Assembly (NCBI GenBank): GCA_947040455.1
Contig: CAMRBN010000006.1
Location: 1 to 45,591 of the forward strand
DNA from: an uncultured Mycoplasma sp.
GTDB lineage: Bacteria; Bacillota_I; Bacilli_A; Mycoplasmatales; Metamycoplasmataceae
DNA length: 45,591 nt
Reading direction: 5' to 3'
Part shown: positions 4,617 to 30,561 of the stretch, piece after piece
Layout of the letters: the number at the start of each line of letters is the position of its first letter
Position numbering within the stretch: the stretch's first letter is position 1
Notes under the pieces: generated by a model
Seen by the model: the letters and a program-made list of their open reading frames with translations, nothing else
Databases searched by the model: none
What the model was told of the DNA's origin: nothing
Position numbers and translations under genes: made by a program

Positions 4617-5438
4617 GTGGAAATAAAACCTATTTATAATACTGGAACTATTACTTTTGTTGAAAACCCCTCAAAACTTAGCGCAATTAAAATAAATTCT
4701 AATTACAAACAAGATCCAAAAGGTGTAATACCGAATGGAATTTACAAAGTATTTAAATATGAAAACTCAAGATTTTTATTTGTATTTATTTTATCTTTCT
4801 TAATATTTTTTTCACAAATAATTATTATATCTTTGATATCCAATGTTTTAAAATGAGGATGATTTTGATATGTTCCGACTTCCGTTATAGCAATAGCATC
4901 ATTAGCCAAATTAATATATAACTATATTGAATATAGAGGTTTAAAAAATGCAATTAATGTGTATAGAGATGATTTGGGTTCTGGATTAAAGACTACCCCC
5001 CCTTTTATTTCAAACATTTATATTAAATTATATAAAAAACAAGTCACTCACAATTGAGCAACTATTTCCATTTTATTTTATGGAACTATTTTTGTTTTAA
5101 TTTTTTGATGATTAAAAGATGTTAATTGATGAATATTTAATTTTGAACAATGAATAAATGATTTGGGTCCTGCTCCTGAAAATTTAGCTATATACATAAT
5201 AATGGGATTAATAGGTGTGATGGTAGTTCATATTTGATTTACAATTTTTAGAAAAAAAAGAATTATTGATATTCAATCTTTTTTCGGTAATGAAGTTATT
5301 TCTCAAATAGAAATTCAAAAAATAACTTCTGAAATGAATAAAGCATACAGGAAAATTTTCTTTTTATCTATTTTAATAATTTTAATAATTCCCATCATTG
5401 TTAAATTGATCATTAGCAAAATTAGAAGCAAAAAATAA
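4617..5438 (+). CDS. Five-helix membrane protein, MSC_0882-like
   Basis: A 273-residue protein that starts with GTG at 4617 (no ATG fits the reading start; GAAAGAG lies about eight bases upstream). A soluble N-terminus of about 58 residues contains DPKGVIPNGIYKVFKYE, then hydrophobic segments near residues 59-85, 90-112, 148-166, 190-212 and 248-268. It is Trp-rich, with many TGA codons, including WGWFWY at the second helix. The 'KGVIPxGIYKVF' block before the first helix recalls the mollicute MSC_0882 membrane family, whose function is unknown; that match is from memory. It ends four bases from the convergent rbfA stop. Confidence 0.65.
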
Positions 5439-5790: not shown

Positions 5791-7644
5791 TTAAGAAACT
5801 AAAACTTCATCATAAGTTTGTAGTTTATCTCCCTCTTCTAAATTATCGAATTTTCTGATATGTGTTCCAAATTCAGTTCCTTTTTCAGCTTTCTTAATGT
5901 TATTTTTACCGTTTTGCAAAGATTCTAATTTACCATCATGAATTATTTTGTCATTTCTTAAAACTCTTAATTTAGTATTAGACTTGATTGTTCCGCTAAC
6001 AACTAAACATCCAGCAATAGTTCCAACTTTTGAAAAATAAAATAATTTTTGAATAAGAGCTTCTCCGGTAATCACTTCTTCATACTTTGGTTCTTGTTTA
6101 GATTTAATAATTAATTCAACATCTTCAATAATTTTATAAATTATTGTCTCTATTTTTATCACAACTTTTTCAGAATCAGCAAATTTTTTAACACTTCCAT
6201 CAACACGAAGATTAAAGGCGTAAATTATAGAATTAGAAGTTTGCGCAAGTAAAACATCACTTTTGGTAACAGAACCCACAGAGGCTCTAACTACATTTAC
6301 AACAACTTCATCATTTTTAATTGCTGATATAGAATGTTTTAAGGCTTCAACAGTTCCTTGAACATCAGATTTAATAATTATATTGAAAATTTTTAAATCT
6401 GAGTTTACATTAGATATTTGCGTTTGTTTTAAATTTAATTCATTTTTCTTATCCACGAAAGCTTTTCTATTAGCTAATTCTTTAGCAAACTTTTCGTCGT
6501 CAAAACCAATAAATCTATCACCAGCATTAGGAGTATAATTTAGACCCGTAACTATTACAGGAGTTCCTGGAAGAGCTTTTTCCAACTCTTCTCCTGTTGT
6601 TGAAGTAATATTTTTAATTCTTCCATAATGAGATCCAGCAACAATAAAATCTCTTTTCAACAAAGTTCCATTTTCGATAATTAAAGTAGCAATAGTTCCT
6701 TGGCCAATATCGATACGTGATTCAATAACAGTTCCCATTGCTGAACGATTTCTATTTGCTTTTAATTCTAGTAACTCTGATTGAAGTAAAATAATATCAA
6801 AAAGTTGATTAATTCCATCACCAGTTAACCCAGAACCATACACGAAAGGAATATTTCCTCCTCATTCTTCACAAAGAATGTCATACTTAGAAAGATCGCC
6901 CTTTACTTTTTCAATATCAATTCCTTGTTTATCCATTTTGTTCACAAAAACTATTAAAGGTACATTTGCGAACTTTGCATGATCAATAGCCTCAATAGTT
7001 TGTGGTTTAACGCCATCATCTGCAGCGACAACCAAAATAACAATATCTGTAACTTTAGCCCCTCTTGCTCTCATCGAAGTAAAAGCTTCATGACCTGGAG
7101 TATCTAAAAAAGTAATAAAGTCTTTCTTGTGTTTGACTTGATATGCACCAGTATGTTGAGTTATACCGCCGCTTTCCCCAATTGCTATATTAGAATTTCT
7201 AATTTTATCAATAAGAGTGGTTTTACCATGATCAACATGACCCATAATAGTAATTATTGGAGGTCTTTTTTCAAGTTCTTCTTTTGGATCGTCAACTTTA
7301 AGATGATCCATGAAATTGGTTTCATTTGATTCCTCTTCTTTTTGAAAATCATATTCATATTCGAAACAAATTTCAGCAATTTCTTCTTCTGATAAAGTTG
7401 AATTCAAATTGTATAACTTGCCTTTTTTGAAAAGATTAATTAATATTTCATTTGGTTTAATTTTAACATTATTTGAAAATTCATTGACAGTCATTGGACC
7501 AGTGAAAATAAAGACACCGTCTTTTAGTTCAGTTTTAATGTTGGTTAATTGATTTTTTATTTGAAGATCATTCGTTCTTCTATTTGCAATTTTATTTTGC
7601 GATTTGTTTTCATTTTTACTATTTTTAGTTTTTAATTTCTTCAT
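5791..7644 (-). CDS. infB: Translation initiation factor IF-2
   Basis: A 617-residue GTPase that brings initiator tRNA to the 30S subunit. A short Lys/Asn-rich N-terminus (about 45 residues) and an IF2_N domain ([17 protein letters not shown], from about residue 42) precede the G domain: G1 GHVDHGKTT (about residues 134-142), G2 around [10 protein letters not shown]3 DTPGHEAF, G4 NKMD (near 235). The C-terminal domains II to IV follow, including [11 protein letters not shown] and [15 protein letters not shown]. One TGA Trp codon lies at 6859. Mycoplasma IF-2 is typically of this short form. The start overlaps the 3' end of rnpM by 20 bases, so translation is probably coupled. Confidence 0.97.
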
Positions 7645-7903
7645 TTTTTTTAACCTCTTGTTTCAATTTATCATATACATCTTTTGAAATGTTTGTTTTG
7701 AATGCTCGATTAAGAACTTTTCTTTCAAGGGCTTGAATAATTAATTTAAATTCATTAGTAATATAGGCCCCTCGTCCTTGCATATGATTATCATTATCTA
7801 AAAAAATATTGTCTTCTTTATCTTTAACAATTCTAATCATATTATTGATATGAGTGACTTTGTTCGTCACAATACATTTTCTTAAAATTTCTTTATTACT
7901 CAT
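7625..7903 (-). CDS. rnpM: RnpM (YlxR, DUF448) RNA-binding protein
   Basis: A 92-residue protein between nusA and infB, the conserved place of ylxR. The start is the ATG at 7903, which overlaps the nusA stop (GAGTAA/ATGAGT region) and has GAAGAG four bases upstream. The family motif is present: [10 protein letters not shown] (usual form 'RKC--C--'), MIRIVKD, and GRGAYI (usual form 'GRGAYvc'). In B. subtilis YlxR has been described as an RNase P modulator, hence RnpM; that role is carried over by homology. It overlaps infB downstream. Confidence 0.88.
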
Positions 7904-12016: not shown

Positions 12017-15000
12017 ATGAAAAAGGCAATAAAACAAAAATTATTAAATCTAATTACAATTAATCCAATTGATTACTGTATTAGAACCAATTTAACAACA
12101 AGGCATATTGATATATTAAAATATGTTAAAAAAGATGCATTTCTTTCGTTTATTAACAAAGAGACAAATCAATTAGAAATATCAACAGCTTCAGGTGTGG
12201 CTTTTTTTGAAGAAGAATTAAACACAGCAAATGATTTAACGAAATTTAACGAAATTATTTTTAATAATGGTTTTCTTCTTTCTACAACAATGTCAAATAA
12301 TCTCACTAAAGACTTTGAAGGTAATAGAAAAAAAATTACCAACCATTATGTTGCAGAAATGAAATCTTCTAAAAAAATATTTTTAGGAATTAACAAAGTT
12401 GCTAAACAATTTTATAATGATTCAGCAATATGACCATTGCATGTTTCGTATCAATTTTTAAAGGGTAAATTTGGTAATAACGTTGCAATTAAAGCTCCAA
12501 TAGTAATTCAAAAAGTAGAGGTTATCGAAGAAGGTGCAAAACTCTTCTTAAGAAGAATTGATGACGATATTATTGTGAATGAAAAATTATGTGTTGTTTT
12601 AAATAAAGAATATAAAACTAATTTAAATTCTCATGAATTATTGCAACCATTATCTTTGGAAGATAGTATTAAAAGATTTGAAGAAATGATTGGTTACCCG
12701 CTTTCTTATCAAAAAAATGGATTAGAAAGTTTTACCAAAGAAGATACAAAAGAATTAATTGAAAATTATTCAATATTACAAGTTGAACCTTCAACAGTAT
12801 TTGGTATTTTTGAACCTGGAGGTTCTGCTCTAAAACAGGATTTAGAAAAAATAATTGAACTTAACTCTGATCCTTTTGAATCTCAAATGGAAGGAAATTT
12901 CAAATCGATTAAACACTATCAAGATAAGGTTGTTAAAGAATCTAATATTTTAGAAATTAATCGTCCATTAAATATTTTTCAAAAATATGCTGTGGCTTCT
13001 TCATTGCAACAATCAACACTTATTTATGGTCCACCAGGAACAGGTAAATCAGAAGTTATTGCCAACATTATTTCCAATGCTTTAATCAAAGGTAGAAGTG
13101 TTTTAATGGTTTCAGAAAAGAAAGCTGCACTTGATGTTCTAACTTCACGTATTAATTCTCTTTCACAATTCACTTTATATCTTTGTGATAACAGAAATGC
13201 AGAAGGTTTCTATAAAAAAATTGATTCATTAAACACAATACTAGGTACTCAATGATATCGTGAACCTTCACGTTATTCAAGAAATGCAGTTATTGAACCT
13301 TTAAAAATGGATAAAAACGAATTGATGTTTTTTAACAATTATCAAGATTGATATTCTGAATTAGTTGTATTAGTTAAAAAACATTGAATTATTGAAGATT
13401 ATAATGATAATATTTTTAACTTGGATTATTCAAAGTACCAAGATTTAAAAAATGATTTAGGTGAACAAATAACCCATGAATGATTGTCAAATATTTTTTC
13501 TCCAGATGGTGGAAACACAACGGTTTATGAATCAATGCAAAAGTTTTTGGTTGAATATAACATTTCAAAAATTGACGACTTTTTTGATGAATATCTAAAA
13601 TATAAAAAATTTGTTAAAAAATATAAATTAGAAGAAGAATTTACTCCAAACGAAATGGTTAAACAAATTAAGAAAATTAAACAAAAAATTTCTATAAACA
13701 TAAAATTGGTAGAATCATTTTTATTGGGTGGTAAAAAAATGGTGGCTTCTTTAGAAGATTTCTTTGTCTTTAAAGAAAAATATGAGCATGCTAAAGAATA
13801 TGAAGACTTTATATCTAAATCATCTAAACAAAAAGCAGATTTCTTAGATAGAATTGATGACTATATATCATTCACAAAAAAATTAATTACTAAAAAACCC
13901 GAGCTTTCAGAATCTCCTAGAGAGAATTTGGTTAATTTTTCAATATTATGTGAAAACTTCAAAGACAAATATAAAAAAGAAATTAGTAAATTTGATTGAT
14001 TATCTTTCTTTGTAGAAAACGGAAGAAAGATTGAGAAATTTCTAGCAGTATTTAATGAATCTAAAGAAGATATTTCAAAAGCTGAAATTATATTTGCAGA
14101 ATTTATAACTAACAAAAAAATTATTAATGATATTGATAATTGTGAATTGCCATTAAAATCAGTTAAATCTATTTCAAAAAATATGAATGAAAATATCAAT
14201 ATGTTTAATGACTTCATTCAAAATATTGATATCTTAGAATCAGAATTTGTAGAGGATTTTATTGCATTTAAAGATTTCTTTGTATTTGATAATGAATTTT
14301 TATTAGAAATATATAAAATTAAAGATGCATTTAACGCAAAAAATCAAACTATAATTAAAGAATGATCTTGATTATCATTGCCTTATATTAAAGTATTGTA
14401 TTTAGAGAACTTTACACTTTTTGATTTATCAACAGTGGGAGAAACTATGCACCACATAACTGCACCTATTAGACACTCTCAATTCGAAAAACTTAAAACT
14501 ATTGCTTTATGAAATGACATTGTTAAAGACATCCCTATGTTCTTAGAAATTAAAGGTATACATTTACAAGATATCATTACTCAATTAAGAAAAGAAGCTA
14601 TTCGTTCGTCATCAATTATTGAGGAATTAGTTTTCAAGAAATACGTTAATTCATTAAGAAATTATTTAATCAAACTTTCAAAAGATGAAAAAGATGAAAT
14701 TGCCAATGTATTACGTATCGCTTCATCAGGAACATATCCTTCTATAACTCAATTTGTTAAAAAATACTATAGTTCTTTGAAAAAACTATTCCCTGTATGG
14801 GTTTGTCGTCCTGATAATGTTTCTGATATGATTCCCTTAATTGAAGAAGAATTTTATTATGGAATATTCGATGAAGCTTCTCAAATGTCAATTGAAAGAT
14901 CATATCCTTTAGTTTATAGATCTAAAATTAAAGTTGTTTCAGGAGATGACAAACAATTAAAACCTTCATCATTCTTTATGTCAAAAAGTGCAGAAGAAGA

Positions 15001-16159
15001 TTTTGATTTTGATGATTTTGATGCTGCAGAATCATTGCTTGAAAGAGCAAAAGTTTCTTGATGAAATGAATTTCATCTAAAAAATCACTATCGTTCTGAT
15101 TCAAAAGAACTTATTGAATTCTCAAATAAATTTATCTACAACAAAAACTTAGAAGTTGCAACTAAGTGCGGTGTTGTCGAAAGAGGAATTGATGTTTATG
15201 ATATCAATGGTGTTTGAAATTCAATGAATCAAGAAGAAGCTAGTAAAGTGATTGACTTGTTGATTGAACATCATGAAACATATGAGAAAATTCTTGTTGT
15301 AACATTTAACTCTAAGCAATCACAATTAATTGAAAACTTATTAGTTGAAAAATCAGCAACTTTTCCTGATTTATTAAAAGAAAAATTAGAAAACAATACA
15401 ATCATAATAACTAACCTTGAAAACGTTCAAGGTAATGAAGGTGATTTAGTTATACTATCAATTTCATATGGTAAAAATGTTGACGGCGTTCTAAAAAATA
15501 ACTTCGGTCCTTTAAATGCCAAAGGTGGTTCTAACAGATTAAATGTTGCTATTACTAGAGCAAGAGCTAAAATGATTATTGTTAAATCACTAAAAGGTGA
15601 TGAAATTAAAGTTTCAAATGTTAATAATAAAAACGCAATTATCTTTAAAAAATTTATCGAGTATTTAGATGCAATAAAAGTAAATCAAACTATTGAAACT
15701 ATAAATGAAGATATGGAAAATATTGATGAAATTAATGAAAGTACTCAATTATTAGACTTAAGACCAATGGAATCAAAAGATGAAGATCATCTAGAATTCT
15801 CTTCAATCATTGCAAAAAATATTTATGGTGATTTGATTAAAAACTTAAGTAGTAAATATGAAATACAAGTTAATATAAGAGTTGGTTCTCAACACATTGA
15901 TTTATTAATATTAAATAAAAAATCAAAAGTTGTTTTAAAGGCATTATTAATTGAAGAATGAAAATCTAATCGTACTGTTAAGGAAATGATTGAAGAAATT
16001 GATCGTCAATACTTTTTAGAAGATAGAGGTTATAGTACTTTCAAAATTAAAGAATATGAATGAAACATAGACAAAATTAAATTAATTGAAAAAATTAAAT
16101 CTTCACTAACAAATGAAGTTGGTCAATTGGATTACATTATTTGACAAACTGAAAAATAA
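12017..16159 (+). CDS. Large SF1 (Upf1-like) helicase with a Vsr-like C-terminal domain, MG140-like
   Basis: A 1380-residue protein read through many TGA Trp codons (first at 12434). Walker A is GPPGTGKS at residues 338-345, Walker B is DEAS at 952-955, motif V/VI elements are VQGNEGDLVILSIS (about 1134) and NVAITRARA (1176-1184). About 600 residues with long helical, Lys/Glu-rich stretches separate motifs I and II, as in the DUF4011/AAA_11-AAA_12 helicases. The last 120 residues resemble the Vsr-like REase_MTES_1575 nuclease: IRVGSQHIDLLIL, then LLIEEW, then DRQYFLEDRGYSTFKI. Asp1295 and Glu1313 are retained but the usual 'DG...HS..RDR' residues are not. M. genitalium MG140 is an annotated helicase of this sort. 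Substrate (DNA or RNA) is unknown. Start chosen by AGGAGA upstream of the ATG. Confidence 0.8.
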
Positions 16160-24862: not shown

Positions 24863-25450
24863 CTATTTAGGAAATACACTTTTTTGTTGTTCTAAAGAAA
24901 GGTTTCAAATACCCACTTTATTAATTTTGGCATATATTTCTATTTTCGATAATTGATTGTAATAATCAATATCTGGATAATAAAAGAAATCACTATCAAT
25001 AGGAGATATATATTTCACTCTTGCCAAACCATTTTTTAATAATTCTAAAGCCAAATCAAAAGTTTGGTAATTTATTTTGGTTATTACTCTATTATAAAAA
25101 TCTAACTTTCATATTTTTAAAATAACTTTTTTATTTAAAATTATTTTGGAACTAAAATTAGCAGCTTTTGATGCATAAAATTTTTGAATTCCTATTGTTG
25201 GGTTAAAATTACGAGTAGAATCAAAACTTTCAGGAGTGTCAACTCCAAGTAATCTATATTTTATATGGTTATTGTCTTGAAATGTATCACCGTCAATAAC
25301 TTTAGAAATGTAGGTGTTGTTGTTTTGTTGGTGACAAGATGTTGTAATAAAAAAAGAAAATATAATCATCAAACATAAAAATCATATTCGAGATATTTTT
25401 CTCTTTTTTTCTCTTCATTTATTATTTTTTTTCATTTTATAATCTATCAT
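24863..25450 (-). CDS. Thermonuclease-family (SNase-like) surface lipoprotein
   Basis: A 195-residue protein. A basic N-terminus and hydrophobic helix end in the lipobox ITTSC (Cys39), so it should be lipid-anchored outside the cell. The SNase core follows: VIDGDTF (metal Asp), YRLLGVDTPES (catalytic Arg, Asp-Thr and Glu) and DFYNRVITKI (second catalytic Arg region). All key residues seem present, so it is likely an active Ca-dependent nuclease. Mycoplasmas use such enzymes to scavenge nucleic acid precursors from the host. The ATG at 25450 is preferred since a TATAAT box (25457-25462, minus) lies six bases before it; a second in-frame ATG at 25435 is possible, and neither has a Shine-Dalgarno sequence. 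Confidence 0.85.
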
Positions 25451-27755: not shown

Positions 27756-29411
27756 ATGTCTAATACAAGAATTTTTGCCTTAGGTGGTTTAGATGAAAAT
27801 GGTAAAAACTGTTATATTTTAGAAGTAGATAAAGAGATATATGTAATTAATTCTGGAACAAAAATACCTATTTCTGCCTCACATGGAATTGACACTCTAA
27901 TTCCAAACTTCAAATATCTTGAAGATAATGCCAACAGAATTAAAGGATTATTTATTACAGATGTTCAAAACGAATCTTTCTCTGCTTTGCCTTGATTATT
28001 AATGATGGTCCCAAACATAACTATTTATTGTTCTGATTTTTCTTTATTTTTAATAAAGGAAAGAATTTCGAAATACAATATCGGAAAATCTAACCACAAA
28101 CTTAAAGAAATAGATTCTAAAGGAGAAAAAATTGGATCTATTATCGTTGAACCTATTGAATTAGCAGGAGCACTTCCTGGTACATTAGGTTTTAATTTCA
28201 AAACCTTAGATGGAAGTGTTATTTTTATGTTTAACTTTGTTAATGCTGACTTAGGAATATATGGAAAGACAGATATTGCTCAAATAAAACAAAACAATCC
28301 TAAAATATTAGCATTAATAATGGATTCTGGAATGTCAAATTTTAACGGTACATCTAGCGAAAATATTGATATTAAAAATTTATTAGATGAAAAATTTAAT
28401 TCAATAAAAGAAAATGAAAGAATAATAGTTGGTTCTTATGATCATGAAATGTCTTCACTGCAACAAATTTTGGATTTAGCAAAAAAATACAACAGAACAG
28501 TAATTACATATGGAAGAATATATCATCAACTTTTAGAATTTTTAATTAATTCTAACCCTAATTTAGTTTTACCTAAAATTGTGGATTACAAAAAAATAAA
28601 AGAAGAAAAGAGTTGTGTAATAATTGTTTCTGGAACTGTTGAAAGATTGTACAAAAGATTTGTAAGAATAACTGATGATAATGATGTTTATCTAAAAATA
28701 AATAATACAGACCACATCGTGATGATTGCTGCGCCGGTTAATGGTTTAGAAACTGAATCAACTTATGCATTAGATGAATTAGCCAGAAAAACACCTCATA
28801 TAATTGATTATACTGATAATGAATTTTATCGTTGTAGGCCAGCAAAACAAGATATCTTTAATATTATTGAATTATTAAAACCTGAATATTTTATTCCTGC
28901 ACAAGGTTTATATAGATATATGATTGTAGCTGTAAAAGAAGCTGTAAGAGCTGGTTTAACACAAAATAAATCTATTCCATTACAAAATGGTAAAATTGCA
29001 AGCTTTCAAAATGGCGAATTAATTTCACAAAAAGAAAGAATTTCTGAGGTTGGAGACATTATAATTGATGGTTTTGGAATTGGAGATATCTCTAAAGAAG
29101 TTATATATGAAAGAGAAGTTATTGCAAGAGATGGAGTTATTGTTGTTTCTGCTCTTTATGACAAAAAAACTAAAAAACTTTTTGATCATATTGATATTAA
29201 ATATATTGGAGTTATTGCTTCTAAAGATAGAGAACAAATTGATATTTTAATAGAAAATACTGTTACTCATATCTATTATGATGAATTAAAATTTTTTACC
29301 AAATTTAGTTTATATAATGTTCAAGACACCATAAGAAAAGTTGTGAGAAAAAAAATATTCAAGATGACTGACAAAGAACCTATGGTTGTTATAATTTTTA
29401 ATGAAATTTAA
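27756..29411 (+). CDS. RNase J-like protein with a lost active site
   Basis: A 551-residue protein with the RNase J layout (beta-lactamase, beta-CASP, C-terminal domain): opening RIFALGGLDENGKNCYILEVD, KEIYVINSGTK, and C-terminal blocks such as ISEVGDIIIDGFGIGDIS and EVIARDGVIVVSALYDKK. The metal ligands are missing. Where active enzymes have 'THGHEDHIG' this one has TDVQNESFS (residues 68-76). The 'H-SGHAS-ED' segment is CRPAKQD (360-366), and the 'P-HGEYR' His is Gln383 in PAQGLYR. It should thus lack nuclease activity. Firmicutes carry a partly degenerate partner, RNase J2, in complex with J1; this gene may fill that structural role. The first TGA Trp is just after residue 80. Confidence 0.8.
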
Positions 29412-29436: not shown

Positions 29437-30561
29437 ATGATTAAGCGAAAAAAAATAGATAAAACTAGAAAATTTCAAAAAAATAATTACAATATTTGGA
29501 CTAATGGTCGTCTTTTATCGCTTATTTTAATAGGTTCATCTCTTTTATTTTTAATTTTATCAATAATTGAATTACCTATTTTATCAGCGATTCCAGGATA
29601 TACTGTTGGATTTTTGTTTGGATATTACTCATATATATTTTATTTTTTTATAATTTACTATTCTATTTGTAAGTTATTCAACATAAACATTTATCTAATT
29701 AAAAAAATTTCAAAATTTAAAGTATTAAATTACTCTTGATTAAATGTTTTTATATTAACATTTGGAATAATGTTAATAATAGAAACTTCCATGTACATAA
29801 ATAATAATAATGCGGCTTTCCCTGGAGTTGATGCATGAACAGATAACTTTACTTCATGATGAAAAAAATTTACATCATTCAATGACCCAACTAAACCCAA
29901 TATTAATAACACTGGCGTTGTTATTAGTTTAATATTATCTATTTTATATTCTATAGGAGGAACTATTATTGCAATAATTTTTTCTTTATTACTTATTTTA
30001 TACTTTATATTTTATTTACTATATTCTTCTCCTATCAAAAAAATTGGTAGTAAAAGAGCGGCTAAAAAAAGAGCGGCCGTTTTAAATCAGGAATATGAAA
30101 CTAAAATAGTTGATCTTTCTTTTGAAGATGAAAATAAAATTATAGTTTCAGAGTTTGGAGATAAAATAGTTGGTGATGCTACGCAACAAATAGAAATTTC
30201 TATACAAACAAAAAACAAATCTAAAGTTACTCCAGTGTCACAAAAATCATTAAAAGATAATAAAAAACAACAAAATATACAAGTATCAACAATTACGGAA
30301 TCTGATGGTGATTCAGAGCAACTAATTGATATTCCTTTTGAAAATCCATTTGATCAAAGTGAAATAATAGTTTCTGCTTCTAATGCCACTGATGAAATCA
30401 AAGTTAAAAAAAGAGCAGGTATTAAATTAGAAGATACTGAATTTTTATTCAACAATATTGTTGAAAGTAAAAAAGAACAAAGCCTTGATGTGTATAATCA
30501 AACTCATGATATTAAAATAAAGAAAAATAGAAAAAAAATAAAAAAAGAGAAAAAAGGATAA
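29437..30561 (+). CDS. Membrane protein resembling the FtsK/SpoIIIE N-terminal domain, without motor
   Basis: A 374-residue protein. After a basic N-terminus (MIKRKKIDKTRKFQ) come four hydrophobic segments (about residues 27-46, 50-80, 101-116 and 165-200). The last has the 'GG-I---.-.-L-.-.G--G' pattern (NTGVVISLILSILYSIGGTI) of the FtsK 4TM domain. The rest (about 205-374) is a hydrophilic, charged, low-complexity tail ending in a Lys cluster. There is no Walker A or B motif, so the DNA-translocating motor is absent. In B. subtilis the RNase J2 gene sits near spoIIIE, which supports the identification by context. Alternatively it is an unrelated mollicute membrane protein. The stop is three bases before the thioredoxin-like gene. 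Confidence 0.45.

Follow-up and report, generated by a model that had tools for sequence, protein, structure and literature searches.

The window, that is, the whole stretch of 45,591 nucleotides analysed here, comes from the draft genome of an uncultured Mycoplasma sp. (820 kb in 16 contigs). At positions 27756-29411 of its plus strand lies an intact ORF of the RNase J2 type (551 aa, hereafter window J2), which is open only under genetic code 4, where TGA is read as tryptophan. The coordinates, the frame and the three motif segments quoted in an earlier, sequence-only reading of this DNA proved correct when we read the sequence again. For the metal ligands we have used the numbering of the J1 paralogue of the same genome, in which the seven RNase J ligands are H69, H71, D73, H74, H138, D160 and H387. 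The gene and its features are, all on the plus strand:

27756..29411, plus strand: gene of a probable RNase J2-type pseudoenzyme (rnjB-like), 551 aa under genetic code 4, with S. epidermidis RNase J2 as best PDB sequence match
27957..27983, plus strand: former HxHxDH motif, now T68-D-V-Q-N-E-S-F-S76, with all four ligands replaced (alignment with J1)
27993..27995, plus strand: TGA read as Trp80 in the conserved PWLL segment, the single TGA of the gene and a stop under table 11
28167..28169, plus strand: Gly138 at the position of a metal-ligand His (J1 H138; alignment with J1)
28233..28235, plus strand: Asn160 at the position of the metal-bridging Asp (J1 D160); N in 56/58 family members
28416..28775, plus strand: beta-CASP domain, residues 221-340 (PF22505, E 5e-9)
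28833..28853, plus strand: C360-RPAKQ-D366 at the phosphate-binding segment HTSGHA, motif B (alignment with J1)
28902..28904, plus strand: Gln383 at the position of the motif-C His (HGEYR); Q in 49/58 family members
29100..29408, plus strand: RNase J C-terminal domain, residues 449-551 (PF17770, E 5e-11)

Full-length similarity to RNase J, the beta-CASP insertion and the C-terminal domain place the protein among the RNases J2. It matches TIGR00649 over its whole length (E 8e-87), with a score of 291.9 bits that lies below the cut-off of 400, and its closest solved relative by sequence is the S. epidermidis RNase J2 (8yyh and 6k6w, E 5e-51 to 1e-50). The C-terminal domain, which serves oligomerisation in known RNases J, was found in 45 out of 45 relatives in our alignment A1, and Trp80 falls within the most conserved columns of 58 J2 relatives. 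The nearest named records are metagenome assemblies of uncultured Mycoplasma sp. (97% identity), followed by Mycoplasmopsis, Metamycoplasma and Mesomycoplasma. A basic RNA-binding surface was considered as a general explanation and dropped, since the pI values point no single way (6.2 for window J2, 8.8 for J1 and a median of 8.9 for the J2 of the family).

Regarding the neighbouring genes, window J2 is directly followed by a gene for a 374-aa membrane protein (29437-30558, plus strand), whose first 190 residues resemble the N-terminal membrane part of the FtsK of relative L097 (26%, 9e-15). In L097 the same slot holds a full FtsK (L097:7684-9807, 708 aa, PF01580 and PF17854), and L096:7679-8464 is listed with the same FtsK-like observation. 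The 374-aa protein lacks the FtsK motor, and a search of the source genome gave no FtsK_SpoIIIE match above the cut-off; judging from these matches, the genome seems to have lost the translocase motor and kept the membrane part. Elsewhere in the window, the gene at 12017-16159 (plus strand, 1380 aa) codes for a protein with DUF4011 and a helicase split into AAA_11 and AAA_12 parts, whose C terminus gives a weak REase-like match to MTES_1575; this product could be a helicase-nuclease and the gene possibly belongs to defence or to a mobile element. We also observed a small secreted or lipoprotein-like staphylococcal-nuclease homologue (24863-25450, minus strand, PF00565, 3e-16) and a predicted membrane protein of 273 aa whose gene contains 10 TGA codons and which matches nothing in Pfam (4617-5438, plus strand).

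The alignment with the J1 of its own genome showed that window J2 retains none of the seven metal ligands (H69D, H71Q, D73E, H74S, H138G, D160N and H387Q), which sets it apart in sequence from the active RNase J/metallo-beta-lactamase nucleases. His365 of J1, the second His of HTSGHA in motif B, is also replaced, by R361. The claim that all visible metal-binding motifs are erased thus holds, with D69/Q71/E73/S74 at HGHEDH, R361 in HTSGHA and Q383 in HGEYR. The list of losses first drawn up was right in its three segments and incomplete, as His138 to Gly and Asp160 to Asn have to be added. Displacement of the ligands to another part of the protein is ruled out: the eight His of window J2 (43, 114, 230, 257, 320, 348, 478 and 505) form no HxH or HH anywhere in the sequence, so the ligands have not simply moved.

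An active-looking RNase J elsewhere in the genome had been predicted, and we found it at C5:196-1908 on the minus strand. This J1 of 570 aa has HGHEDH, HTSGHA and HGEYR intact and all seven ligands, so window J2 co-occurs with a J1 as expected of an RNase J2. Within the genome, only this J1 matched RMMBL, a family that forms part of the catalytic core of RNase J. The two paralogues share about 25% identity and their genes lie non-adjacent, a point against their partnership. When we looked for linkage of J1 and J2 genes in the available flanks of relatives, only one case appeared, Metamycoplasma hyosynoviae, in which, unlike in the source genome, the two genes are about 4 kb apart (L092:572-2338 and 6001-7650).

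An RNase J match is present in all 135 genomes of the family (14 genera) and in all 320 genomes of the order (50 genera, 11 families). At least two matches were counted in 309 of these 320 genomes, a count of RNase J matches per genome in which second matches are not individually sorted into J1 or J2; the 11 genomes with a single match are drafts of at least 60 contigs. We then compared 169 J2 from the order, a sample that spans its main genera and part of its genomes. None of them has the motif-C His and none exceeds 3/7 ligands, in contrast to the J1 of the order, with 7/7 ligands in 23 out of 23 examined. Within the family (n=58), 38 J2 keep no ligand, 13 keep one, 3 keep two and 4 keep three, and among the J2 of the other families of the order (n=111) the corresponding numbers are 33, 66, 11 and 1, the single ligand being mostly that of the Asp160 position. 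HxH is kept by only 6 of the 169, from genera g2, g9 (which includes Mycoplasma todarodis, L099), g11 and g14. All J2 examined from the f7 family (genera g24-g35), to which we infer that M. mycoides belongs, lack both HxH and the motif-C His. MG423 of M. genitalium, proposed as a reference for comparison and presumably our record L139, is itself probably metal-less. The metal-site loss described for this gene is real; as the loss of most or all ligands it is order-wide and not peculiar to one species.

Conservation among the J2 is highest in three places: LGGLDENGKN close to the N terminus, R387, and GFGxGDIS, which precedes the C-terminal domain. Foldseek searches with an AlphaFold2 model of window J2 (45 sequences, pLDDT 86.6, pTM 0.76) gave as top match 9a5v, an integrative model of B. 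subtilis J2-J1, then 3zq4 and other RNases J, with CPSF73 and the Integrator cleavage module far below; the S. epidermidis J2 fits the model at 2.6-3.1 A over the catalytic part alone. Window J2 is thus predicted to adopt the RNase J fold. The low-confidence parts of the model, residues 13-15 and 440-454, also lie in the most conserved stretches, and one may speculate that they would fit surfaces needing a partner.

According to these results, we consider it likely that mycoplasma RNase J2 is a pseudoenzyme that serves J1 as a non-catalytic partner within a J1-J2 complex. J2 would retain both the MBL/beta-CASP fold and its C-terminal domain for oligomerisation and would be unable to hold catalytic metals; J1 would supply the sole active site of the complex, and J2 would shape, stabilise or target J1, giving it structural support in the way that CPSF100 and INTS9 support CPSF73 and INTS11. 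The inactivity of J2 in hydrolysis, its binding to J1 and its effect on J1 are what we infer from the comparisons given here. Nuclease activity is very unlikely for a protein with 0/7 ligands, and some activity may persist in those J2 of the order that keep a few of them, where its absence is not certain.

One could argue that the former pocket has been repurposed, so that J2 now uses it to bind the ends of RNA, a nucleotide or a protein, and functions in part or entirely independently of J1. The residues that replaced the ligands are indeed conserved in the family (N160 in 56/58, D69 and Q383 in 49/58 each), as are Y228-D229 (55-56), L385 (57) and R387, a neighbour of Gln383 that is invariant in 58/58, and most J2 of the order carry an acidic Y/F-[DE]-x-[DE] segment instead of FASN and GLY[RK] instead of GEYR. 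However, such a pocket has no known ligand, and at the former site different residues (KPSD, NPSxYN, GTPSY) occur in the order's other families, hence there is no single new site conserved order-wide. We regard this explanation as unlikely. Still less probable, to the point that we give it little weight, is that J2 remains a nuclease, through another mechanism or with one metal, like the S. epidermidis J2, whose altered site binds a single Mn2+ and whose activity prefers Ca2+ (PMC7864078). Some mycoplasma J2 do retain D160 or a few ligands. However, the staphylococcal metal is held by His76, His78, His80, His144 and Glu166 (PMC7864078), and at the corresponding positions window J2 has D69, Q71, E73, G138 and N160. 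Finally, there is hardly any chance that the gene is decaying or an artefact of sequencing or assembly, as the lost motifs and the draft nature of the assembly might suggest: an artefact or pseudogene is refuted by the intact frame, the dN/dS values, the same residues in independent assemblies and the presence of full-length orthologues in almost every genome of the order.

These selection data also bear on the non-catalytic subunit. Pairwise dN/dS within the genus (Nei-Gojobori; the wider pairs are rough, with dS near 1) ranged from 0.04 to 0.15 for J2, which excludes a pseudogene, and from 0.01 to 0.06 for J1. J2 is therefore under constraint, weaker than that on J1, its dN/dS being 1.3 to 5 times higher in matched pairs. 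An independent assembly contains a 97% identical J2 orthologue (dN/dS 0.05) with the same residues at the lost sites, which rules out an error in a single sequence. That the protein is selected for something other than metal catalysis, as suggested in the sequence-only reading, gains support from this constraint on an intact frame, from the preserved fold and C-terminal domain and from the order-wide retention.

We built a tree of 98 rows with the ligand columns removed, a quick and unrooted tree with some long branches. In it, the order's J2 group together in a single clade (100, starred), separate from the J1 clade; those of the family likewise form one clade (100), and the J1 of the order fall in one clade with other J1. 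Window J2 therefore groups with RNase J2, and the position of the group within the Bacilli J2 is not fixed by the tree. None of the 49 J2 of the order on the tree has the motif-C His. Loss of HxH within the J2 clade takes 6 losses under no-regain parsimony and 3 changes under ordinary parsimony. As early members of the family still have HxHDE, the ancestor of the family probably had HxH, with separate losses elsewhere; one early loss followed by regain is less likely. In other Bacilli, most J2-like proteins retain HxH together with 3-6 ligands, and in many of them K or I replaces the motif-C His; this points to a stepwise erosion that looks to have started with motif C and reached the remaining ligands later. 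Early-branching Metamycoplasmataceae J2 with HxHDE or HxHDD (e.g. ISHGHDE) represent a half-eroded, intermediate state; they come from the named records L099, L097 and L096 and from L041, L043, L047, L050, L051 and L053, and would be useful for timing the loss of activity.

A combined picture, in which an order-wide obligate pairing of nuclease and pseudonuclease (the bacterial equivalent of CPSF73-CPSF100) lost the J2 site several times independently after the motif-C His and rebuilt the pocket as a new conserved site in Metamycoplasmataceae, is plausible, though as a whole it falls somewhat short of probable.

J1/J2 heteromers from Bacillus and Staphylococcus, weakly active J2 and inactive eukaryotic beta-CASP partners are known; what is apparently new is the complete loss of the metal site in a mollicute J2, of which we found no description in the open-access literature (subscription journals lay outside the search). 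A 2014 survey describes the two paralogues as catalytic and, for Mollicutes, goes no further than asking if this holds (PMC4014445). In Bacillus and Staphylococcus it is not settled whether RNase J2 matters for its catalysis or for a structural role. In S. aureus, an H76A/H78A J2 mutant grew like the wild type and deletion of J2 was harmful, and the authors propose a mainly structural J2 (PMC3937233). An order with small genomes that kept J2 in almost all of them and discarded its metal site is the natural counterpart of that mutant and, including as it does the organism behind Syn3.0, a clean system for testing the structural role. The minimal cell Syn3.0 retains RnjB beside RnjA (PMC4993169). 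There is also a consequence for annotation. The label 'RNase J family beta-CASP ribonuclease' (TIGR00649, named after MG423) is borne by proteins that very likely cut nothing: a metal-less J2 (P0002, L118) scored 451 bits, which exceeds the curated threshold of 400, and such proteins will accordingly be named ribonuclease by automatic annotation.

Among known systems, the Bacillus and Staphylococcus RNase J2 (RnjB) is like window J2 in paralogue group, domain order, C-terminal domain, co-occurrence with J1 and a degraded site. It differs in that it keeps the HxH core and most ligands, of which window J2 keeps none. As had been stated from the outset, classical J2 retains much of the motif, both in alignments of Bacilli J2 and in S. 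aureus, where it reads HGHEHA (PMC3937233), and a staphylococcal J2 with a degraded site still shows weak single-metal activity (PMC7864078). By analogy, the mycoplasma J2 look like the evolutionary end point of the S. aureus state, in which the active site is dispensable. RNase J1 (RnjA) shares the fold and overall length with window J2 and differs in having all seven ligands. In eukaryotes, CPSF73 and INTS11 are the active partners of CPSF100 and INTS9, respectively. CPSF100 and INTS9 are themselves inactive beta-CASP partners, INTS9 being unable to coordinate the catalytic metals (PMC7980224). The likeness is that a beta-CASP pseudonuclease, in our case a probable one, is retained beside a paralogue with an intact site. 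CPSF100 and INTS9 differ as eukaryotic subunits of 3'-end processing, far in sequence, and the bacterial case arose separately from RNase J2; hence, the parallel is one of mode of working and not of membership.
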